Positions 34,888 to 38,232 of a stretch of 47,065 nt of DNA are shown here, in pieces (positions within the stretch are counted from its first letter, which is position 1; each line of letters opens with the position of its first letter). The DNA comes from Phormidesmis priestleyi BC1401 (GTDB taxonomy: Bacteria > Cyanobacteriota > Cyanobacteriia > Leptolyngbyales > Leptolyngbyaceae). The stretch covers positions 1 to 47,065 of the forward strand of contig NZ_LXYR01000041.1 in assembly GCF_001650195.1 (NCBI RefSeq). Direction: 5' to 3'. A program made the translations under genes and the position numbers. The notes below the pieces were generated by a model. The model had not been told where the DNA came from. It saw only the letters and a program-made list of their open reading frames with translations, and made no database searches.

Positions 34888-36195
34888 ATGAGCACATGGA
34901 CCACTTATCGCAACCGCGAAATCGTTCAGGAAGAGCAAAGGCTCTATGATCATTTTCTCGATCGAGTGCAATGCGAGTCACCCCAGCAGTTGATTGAGCG
35001 CTTTCGATCGCTTTTCATTGAGGGAACTAGCTACGATCCTCAAGTTCTCTCAGATCTCGATAAAATCGTTGCCTCAAAAATTGCAGCTCACGAATTTAAG
35101 TTCGTTCTAAATCGCTGCTGCCACATTTTGATTAACCGTTGGCAAGCTCGACCTCACTCACAGACGGCGATCGTTGAGCTAGTTGCGCTGCTGTCATCGT
35201 CGCCCACCCGTCCAGTGATAGAATATGCCCGCACTCGCGTCGTCAAGCAACTGCGAGAACTCGTCAAACAATTTCTTGAGACTGAGCAATATCTGACACT
35301 GCGCCGATTGTCTCAACTGATGGTTCAAGGAGCCGAAACTCACAGCGCAGAAACGTCTCCGTTAGGAACGCTAATCCGCCGCTATCCCTATCTCTATGAG
35401 CACTGTCTGGTGAGTGAAGGCAGCCCCGATGAGCACCAGGAGTCGATTCGACAAATTCAAACTCAGGTGCAGAGACAATATGAAATTGACCTGTCCCAAT
35501 ATGTGACTTATCAAGTCCGGCGATTGTTTGGGGTTCGTGAAGCCGCTACACCTTCAATTATCATTCCCGCTCACGTCCCTGCCCGGCTGATCACACCCGT
35601 CAAAAACCCGACGTTGCTTGACGATCGTGATCTGCGACTGGCGTTGCAGCAGTTTGCAGGCAAAATTGAGGGAGCTTATACTCATCGAGATATCGCCCAA
35701 CGCTTTCTAAACCACACGAGCGACACGAAATCATTTAAGGCATTTAAAGACGATCTTTATCAATATATTACTGCGTCGATCGAGTCTGAATATGGCAAGC
35801 GGCAGTTCAACAACCAGCTTTATGCTCAACTAGAAAACACGTTACCTGAAAGCAACTTTCAGCCGCTAAATGATTTTCTGATTGTCAGAACGTGTAGTCA
35901 GTTGCTGAACTTCTTAGTAGTCGAAAGCCCACAGCAGCCTCAACATTTTGTCTTTGTAGATCTGCTCTCAAATCTAGGTCCGACGTTGACAACGAGCCTG
36001 TTGCTCAAGATTGTGTTGCTGTGCCGCAAAGTCAAGCCCTATTTAGAAAAACGGTTTTCGATCTTATTCAGCCACTATGAGTCTCACGCCCGCAATTGCG
36101 TGCACTGGCTGATTGCCGCAATGGAAAACTTGCACATTGCCCTCAGCGCAAACTTTAGCACGCTCAATCTTTGTTTCGTCAATCAGCTCGCTTAG
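34888..36195 (+). CDS. Hypothetical cyanobacterial helical protein
   Basis: A 435-residue protein I cannot assign to a family. It is predominantly helical and soluble, with no signal peptide or membrane segment. Parts read like a helical repeat scaffold (RPHSQTAIVELVALLSSSP; RELVKQFLETEQYLTLRRLS; KDDLYQYITASIESEYGKRQ). No catalytic motif is visible. The ATG at 34888 is preceded by AGGATCTCC at a reasonable distance. It stands between the RelA/SpoT gene and the damaged rpsU gene on the same strand. Similar uncharacterised proteins are likely conserved in cyanobacteria, but that is a recollection, not shown here. Confidence 0.65.
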   Translation: MSTWTTYRNREIVQEEQRLYDHFLDRVQCESPQQLIERFRSLFIEGTSYDPQVLSDLDKIVASKIAAHEFKFVLNRCCHILINRWQARPHSQTAIVELVALLSSSPTRPVIEYARTRVVKQLRELVKQFLETEQYLTLRRLSQLMVQGAETHSAETSPLGTLIRRYPYLYEHCLVSEGSPDEHQESIRQIQTQVQRQYEIDLSQYVTYQVRRLFGVREAATPSIIIPAHVPARLITPVKNPTLLDDRDLRLALQQFAGKIEGAYTHRDIAQRFLNHTSDTKSFKAFKDDLYQYITASIESEYGKRQFNNQLYAQLENTLPESNFQPLNDFLIVRTCSQLLNFLVVESPQQPQHFVFVDLLSNLGPTLTTSLLLKIVLLCRKVKPYLEKRFSILFSHYESHARNCVHWLIAAMENLHIALSANFSTLNLCFVNQLA

Positions 36196-36454
36196 GGCTT
36201 GTCGAAGGATAACGGCATAATTTCGGAGGAGTCGCTTCCTTCCACTTCGTTTAGCCAGCATCACAAGGTTTTTGAGCGATCGCAAGTCAAAGATAAGTTC
36301 TTTAAATCTGGCTTTGCTTTGCTGGTTTACATCTTAAAAGCTCCGTTTAAGATAGTGCTGTAGACCGTTCAAAAGGTGGCACTCATCGATCGTGCCGTCT
36401 AACTTGTCTACAATTTATACTGTTTAACGATGAGTTTGAGAAACACTTTGAACA

Positions 36455-36633
36455 ATGACTCAAGTGCTCTTAAGTGAAAACGAAAGTATTGAATCAGCGC
36501 CACGTCGTTTTAAGCGGCAAGTCTCAAAAGCAGGGACTTTAACAGATGCGAGTCTCGCCGCCACTTTGAAACTCCGATCGAGAAACGTAAGCGCAAGCAA
36601 ATCACTGCTCGGCGGACTCGGCACGATCGCTAA
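36455..36633 (+). pseudogene. rpsU: Ribosomal protein bS21 gene with frameshift
   Basis: The frame starting ATG 36455 gives [20 protein letters not shown] then [11 protein letters not shown], clearly the N-terminus of bS21, then goes out of frame. In another frame the expected C-terminus is intact: [20 protein letters not shown] then RTRHDR, ending at TAA 36631-36633. The span of 179 bases is one short of 60 codons, so a single base is missing, near GATGCGAG at about 36550. The N-terminal part also has changes such as Pro at the usual Leu of IESALRRFK. Likely a decaying second rpsU copy; a sequencing error is the alternative. Confidence 0.82.
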
Positions 36634-36732: not shown

Positions 36733-38232
36733 ATGTCTAACTCAACCGCAGATTCCGGCGATTTGTCTTCTGCAACACCGCTCCAAACGGCATTTAGTCA
36801 AGGTTTAGACGAAGCCATTCTCGGCTTTGATGAGATTCAGGCAGAACTGAACTATAAGCAAGCTCAGACAGCCCTGCGCGATCTCGTCGAAAACCTAGAC
36901 CTGACTCCTCAAGAGCGATCGGGGCTAGAGCCAGAAATTAACGGGCTAGAAACCATGCTTGATAAGCTGGATCGGCTAGTGGTGCACATCGCAGCGTTTG
37001 GCATGGTGGGGCGAGGCAAGTCGTCAATATTAAACTCTCTTTTAGGAGAAAAGGTTTTTGAAACGGGTCCGATTCATGGGGTGACTCAGATTCAGCAGTC
37101 AGCAAATTGGAGTTTGACCCGCGAAGCAATCGAGGGCAGCGATCGTTCCATTCTGCGGGTCTCGCTCCCTAGCATCAATGAGTCTCACATCGAACTGATC
37201 GACACTCCCGGCATTGATGAAGTCGATGGAGAAGCGCGGGAAGCGCTGGCGCGGCAGGTGGCAAAACACGTAGACCTGCTGCTGTTCATCATTTCTGGCG
37301 ATATGACAAAGGTTGAGTTTCAGGCGCTTTCAGAACTGCGAGAAGTTGGAAAGCCGATTATTTTGGTGCTGAACAAAATCGATCAATATCCAGATGCCGA
37401 TCGAGTGAGCATTTACCAAAAAATTCGAGATGAGCGGGTTAAAGAATTGCTCTCGCCTGACGAAATTGTGATGGCAGCAGCGTCTCCCTTGATTGCCAGG
37501 GCAGTGAAGCGTCCCGATGGTCGCACGTCAGTGCAGTTAAGCACCGGAGAGCCGCAGGTAGAAGACCTGAAGCTAAAAATCCTAGAGGTCTTGCACCGAG
37601 AAGGAAAATCGCTAGTGGCGCTGAACACGATGCTTTACGCCGACGATGTGAATGAGCAATTGGTGCAGCGCAAAATGGCGATTCGAGAACAGACCGCCAA
37701 TCGGATTATTTGGAACGGGGTGATGACTAAAGCGGTGGCGATCGCGATCAATCCGATCACGGTATTAGATATTCTTAGCAGTGCCGCGATCGATGTGGCG
37801 ATGATTCTCACTCTGTCAAAACTGTATGGAATTAGCATGACGCAGCAGGGTGCGATCGGGCTGTTGAAAAAGATCGCGATCGCGATGGGCGGCATCACAG
37901 CGAGCGAACTGCTGGCAAATCTAGGACTCGGCTCTCTCAAAAGTTTGCTCGGTTTAGCGGCTCCTGCAACAGGCGGAATGTCACTTGTCCCCTACCTTTC
38001 GGTTGCGTTGACTCAAGCTGGAGTCGCAGGCATTTCGTCTTACGGGATTGGACAAGTGACCAAAGCCTATCTCGCAAACGGCGCATCTTGGGGACCCGAC
38101 GGACCTAAAGCTGTCGTCACGCGCATTTTATCGTCTTTAGATGAGGCATCGATTCTTAACCGCATCAAAGACGAACTGCGTGCCAAACTCGATTTCAACA
38201 GTCGAAAAGCGGCTGTGAAAAACGAAAGCTAG
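36733..38232 (+). CDS. Membrane-associated GTPase with DUF697-like C-terminus
   Basis: A 499-residue Era/TrmE-type GTPase. The P-loop GMVGRGKSSILNSL is near residue 93, G3 is ELIDTPGIDE and G4 is LVLNKIDQY. The Walker A differs slightly from GxxxxGKS only in context and should bind GTP. The C-terminal half has hydrophobic helices (ILDILSSAAIDVAMILTLSK; GLLKKIAIAMGGITASELLA) typical of DUF697 proteins, which probably attach it to membranes. The role in cyanobacteria is unknown. It ends before a MITE-like element and a bidirectional terminator that separates it from the MscS-like gene. Confidence 0.85.
   Translation: MSNSTADSGDLSSATPLQTAFSQGLDEAILGFDEIQAELNYKQAQTALRDLVENLDLTPQERSGLEPEINGLETMLDKLDRLVVHIAAFGMVGRGKSSILNSLLGEKVFETGPIHGVTQIQQSANWSLTREAIEGSDRSILRVSLPSINESHIELIDTPGIDEVDGEAREALARQVAKHVDLLLFIISGDMTKVEFQALSELREVGKPIILVLNKIDQYPDADRVSIYQKIRDERVKELLSPDEIVMAAASPLIARAVKRPDGRTSVQLSTGEPQVEDLKLKILEVLHREGKSLVALNTMLYADDVNEQLVQRKMAIREQTANRIIWNGVMTKAVAIAINPITVLDILSSAAIDVAMILTLSKLYGISMTQQGAIGLLKKIAIAMGGITASELLANLGLGSLKSLLGLAAPATGGMSLVPYLSVALTQAGVAGISSYGIGQVTKAYLANGASWGPDGPKAVVTRILSSLDEASILNRIKDELRAKLDFNSRKAAVKNES

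Follow-up and report, generated by a model that had tools for sequence, protein, structure and literature searches.

The rpsU copy at positions 36455 to 36633 of the forward strand raises the question of whether it is a working gene for ribosomal protein bS21 with a base missing from its sequence, or a gene that is being lost. The window (the whole stretch of 47,065 nucleotides that was analysed) is contig C41 of a cyanobacterial draft genome of 5.55 Mb, in 213 contigs and 99.99% complete. No tRNA genes, tmRNA genes, or Rfam matches at gathering score were found within it. An earlier note had described the two halves of bS21 in different frames, with 179 bases against 180, and both the open reading frames and an alignment with an intact orthologue of the same genus (L033) bore this out. 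Type A (the broken copy), type B (an intact copy elsewhere in the genome), and class C are labels coined in this analysis. The features of the locus are these:

34888..36195, forward strand: intact gene for a 435-amino-acid protein, the upstream neighbour, conserved beside type A rpsU (open reading frame, gene order of relatives)
36430..36454, forward strand: leader in which the orthologues' Shine-Dalgarno pairing is lost, gagg in L033 being gaga here (duplex energy, alignment)
36455..36550, forward strand: 5' half of the decayed type A rpsU (bS21), in frame 1, encoding residues 1 to 32 (positions 1 to 30 of Pfam profile PF01165; comparison with 28 intact orthologues)
36552..36553, forward strand: approximate place of the base that is missing by comparison with the same-genus orthologue (L033 and L044 aligned by MAFFT)
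36553..36633, forward strand: 3' half of the decayed rpsU in another frame, with a 13-residue core kept and a taa stop at 36631 to 36633 (sequence, alignment, orthologue comparison)
36733..38232, forward strand: intact gene for a 499-amino-acid DUF697/dynamin-like GTPase, the downstream neighbour, also found in part of the relatives (open reading frame, Pfam, gene order)

From the ATG at 36455, frame 1 encodes the first half of bS21 and then an unrelated tail, and stays open to 36661 (68 amino acids). The Pfam profile Ribosomal_S21 (PF01165) matched over only positions 1 to 30 of its 55, scoring 30.4 bits (cut-off, 27; E 3.2e-7), and a profile search of the whole genome gave 29.4 bits (E 3.8e-6). 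No single open frame spans the full domain at 36455 to 36633, where the halves occupy two frames. One base is missing relative to the intact orthologue in L033. The aligner put the gap between gag and tc, at about 36552/36553, an exact placing that depends on the alignment. The deletion is absent from L033 and L044 and from 30 intact type A copies, in which the frames are open. It is the only indel, and there is no in-frame stop before the break.

Gene order identifies the copy. The intact same-genus orthologue sits between the same two neighbours, and at least one of the 435-amino-acid gene and the DUF697 GTPase gene was found beside 25 of the 30 intact type A copies in the flanking DNA examined; the broken copy adjoins both. 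Because this position is kept as in the orthologues, the match to rpsU is not due to chance. Neither neighbour was present in the flanking DNA examined around the type B copy of the same genome. The 435-amino-acid protein has no Pfam match, yet in many relatives, too, its gene precedes type A rpsU. For the GTPase, the best named matches were a Leptolyngbyaceae metagenome-assembled genome and Myxacorys californica, at 81% protein identity. No named genome was nearer among the best 80 of 206 named-genome matches, from which records of the window's own genome were possibly excluded.

We then asked how far the copy departs from its intact orthologues. The type A set of 30 intact copies was chosen by a sequence pattern that itself fixes many columns; as a check on the pattern, 27 copies had a syntenic neighbour, and all of these except the window copy and one other (G030, cut by a contig end and outside the invariant-column count) fell in the set. 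An identical protein found twice in one genome was collapsed to one copy, and two 60-amino-acid copies were left out of the column count, which thus used 28 of the 30. In these 28 proteins, 38 of 59 columns are invariant, and the broken copy departs at seven of them: V5L, G7S, G11S, L16P, I28T, and A30T before the break and R57H after it. The proline that the earlier note had remarked on in place of leucine is therefore confirmed as residue 16, which is leucine in all 28 intact orthologues. Departures are also seen in intact genes. When each of 24 intact family sequences was left out in turn, four departed at columns fixed in the others, with 1, 1, 2, and 5 departures; the five belong to the intact orthologue G008, and this counts against a reading of decay.

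The leader has changed as well. Its pairing with the 16S tail reaches −2.7 kcal/mol, whereas the leaders of 31 type A copies average −7.74 and none of them is weaker than −3.5. A run of at least four pairing bases, counted leniently at any spacing, is present in 29 of the 31 type A leaders, against three bases in the broken copy. One intact type A gene, that of G028, pairs only slightly more strongly (−3.5 kcal/mol), and background ORFs average −3.3, close to the −2.7 of the broken copy, so that a weak leader does not by itself kill a gene. In general, intact rpsU genes pair more strongly than the background does, with means of −7.7 kcal/mol for type A and −8.8 for type B against −3.3 for background ORFs, the leader lengths differing slightly (21 bases for types A and B; 25 for the background and class C). 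The background was 563 ORFs of at least 250 amino acids, each taken from its longest ATG start, so that true starts were possibly missed; some loci overlap, and the labels "B" and "other" in this comparison came from a rough sequence pattern. On the side of the ribosome, the search for 16S rRNA (26 of 99 first-look candidates scored) gave a single match, which ends GGATCACCTCCTTA, with the anti-Shine-Dalgarno end intact. Relaxed initiation through an altered 16S end was rejected on this ground.

Substitution rates were compared with genome G001, the one other genome of the genus among those examined. Between the window genome and G001, type A showed a dN/dS of 0.228, against 0.068 and 0.055 for its two neighbours; for type B the ratio was 0. 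Fisher tests on rounded counts separated type A from type B (p 0.0007) and from the neighbours (p 0.026 and 0.002). When the state held by most of 23 other family copies was used to polarise the changes, 15 non-synonymous and 10 synonymous ones fell on the window branch, and 2 and 7 on the G001 branch. The 15:10 ratio is compatible with the neutral expectation (p 0.27, with kappa assumed to be 4). The two branches did not differ significantly (p 0.12), and this again counts against decay. Judged against relatives and neighbours, selection on the broken copy has probably been relaxed, the branch-against-branch test alone not being significant.

Three marks of decay agree: the missing base, the seven altered columns among the 38 invariant ones, and the lost Shine-Dalgarno pairing. 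They support the reading that, in a Leptolyngbyaceae-like cyanobacterium, the type A bS21 paralogue has become a pseudogene and the ribosomes are supplied by the intact type B copy, to which we give a probability of roughly 90%. The decay of a copy that the earlier note had suspected is borne out. With one indel, no in-frame stop before the break, and the 13-residue core kept, the copy has either decayed recently or possibly owes its indel to an error. The main rival is indeed that the base was lost in sequencing or assembly and that the gene is working and fast-evolving. The draft state of the assembly (213 contigs), the single indel, and the core motif kept in the second frame speak for it. 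However, the weak leader is not explained by a base-calling error, nor are the missense changes at invariant sites, six of them ahead of the break and R57H beyond it, and no other frame break was found in the four genes comparable with G001, about 6 kb of the same stretch (two further rows of that comparison are antisense frames). Since the missense changes and the leader are separate marks of decay, restoring the base alone would not rescue the gene. We consider an error improbable, and a true, fairly young pseudogene most likely.

It is very improbable that the 68-amino-acid product, with the first half of bS21 and a new tail, is made and active. Its frame does stay open, and a Flavobacterium johnsoniae strain with a C-terminally truncated bS21 grows, according to the available part of PMC9976891. 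However, such a product would carry L16P in the putative first helix and be translated from a weak leader, and the tail is not conserved, since the 30 intact type A copies read on in the other frame. Programmed frameshifting or slippage that restores bS21 is hardly credible and was rejected, because although both halves lie in overlapping open frames, the gene holds no X XXY YYZ site (Y being A or T), its homopolymers do not exceed four bases, and the break is absent from the 30 intact type A copies.

The profile search found two rpsU matches in the genome, the broken copy and an intact one on another contig (G000:C21:57633-57797; E 7.4e-18). This is the second rpsU whose existence the earlier note had raised. 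It has a Shine-Dalgarno sequence, AGGAG, that pairs at −7.4 kcal/mol. G001 has intact genes of both types; its type B protein and that of the window genome are the same, the genes differing by 0 non-synonymous and 16 synonymous changes. This conservation suggests that the intact copy is functional. Of the two genes, type B is intact and type A seems too decayed to be of use. The host with relaxed initiation that the earlier note had offered as an alternative finds no support, as the genome keeps both an intact bS21 gene and an unaltered anti-Shine-Dalgarno end on its one 16S match. We propose that the lineage once had two bS21 genes, A and B; that selection on A was relaxed; and that A may then have taken on missense changes and lost its Shine-Dalgarno sequence and one base, while type B would have provided bS21 for the ribosomes. 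A functional type A protein would then no longer be made, and B alone would supply the ribosome.

Such a loss has parallels in the family. In 35 family genomes, the window genome included, no type A copy was found in nine (draft genomes, searched with a threshold of E 0.001; G034, among the nine, is 69% complete), and five have a single bS21. Therefore, one bS21 seems to be enough, and loss of type A seems to be ordinary. The case is one of ordinary paralogue loss, that of a spare gene for a ribosomal protein. A stronger claim, that the lineage switched from two kinds of ribosome, with bS21 A and B, to B alone, we regard as unlikely. If it were true, the mRNAs that start well might have shifted, and comparison with the same-genus relative that has both copies would be a natural experiment on cyanobacterial bS21 heterogeneity. 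More mildly, a loss caught in progress and a relative that keeps both copies make the role of cyanobacterial bS21 paralogues testable.

A wider lead than the loss of type A is an extended Shine-Dalgarno sequence on another cyanobacterial bS21 type. This third type, class C (RRFKKKIQKAGILSEVKRRERYEKPS), often starts with GTG and has a leader with aaggaggtga or most of that motif. The profile search did not find it in the window genome. The leaders compared were these:

L224 to L253, and also L165, L022, L190, L159, L167, L025, L143, and L140: class C rpsU leaders, 25 bases upstream of the start

In a first set, the class C start motif occurs in eight copies, all of which pair at −16.1 to −18.0 kcal/mol; in the background of 563 ORFs, 0.18% are at or below −13. 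Of 291 genomes drawn from the class, 44 had a bS21 match of at least 76 bits, and the best 30 of these loci were examined, 7 of the 30 genomes being shared with the first set. Pairing was −15.3 kcal/mol or below in 18 of the 30, a count uncorrected for kinship, and all 18 are in genomes with at least two bS21 matches. The other 12 pair at −11.4 to −12.1 kcal/mol; each has a single bS21 match in its genome, and all belong to one family, to which one of the strong 18 (G251) also belongs. G045 is an exception, with a single bS21 match and yet −16.6 kcal/mol. None of 42 neighbouring ORFs of class C loci reached −13 kcal/mol. We found no mention of an extended Shine-Dalgarno sequence on cyanobacterial bS21 in a literature search outside whose scope most subscription papers lay.

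In Bacteroidota, by the available text of PMC9976891, an extended Shine-Dalgarno sequence (below −13) marks rpsU, which is autoregulated via ribosomes lacking bS21. Class C rpsU resembles it in having such a sequence. A parallel to types A and B is offered by Francisella tularensis, which has several bS21 homologues in one genome, none of them singly essential, as the accessible part of PMC9578407 reports. In contrast, no sign was seen here that types A and B differ in mRNA preference. The broken copy itself is like type A cyanobacterial bS21 (rpsU, PF01165) in sequence, gene order, and size, but it lacks one base, departs at 7 of the 38 invariant columns, and has lost its Shine-Dalgarno sequence. 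The Discussion of the Flavobacterium paper (McNutt et al. 2023, PMC9976891) counts certain Cyanobacteria with the organisms that carry additional bS21 genes and states that the number differs even between close species. Here, one such loss is caught part-way, as a pseudogene.
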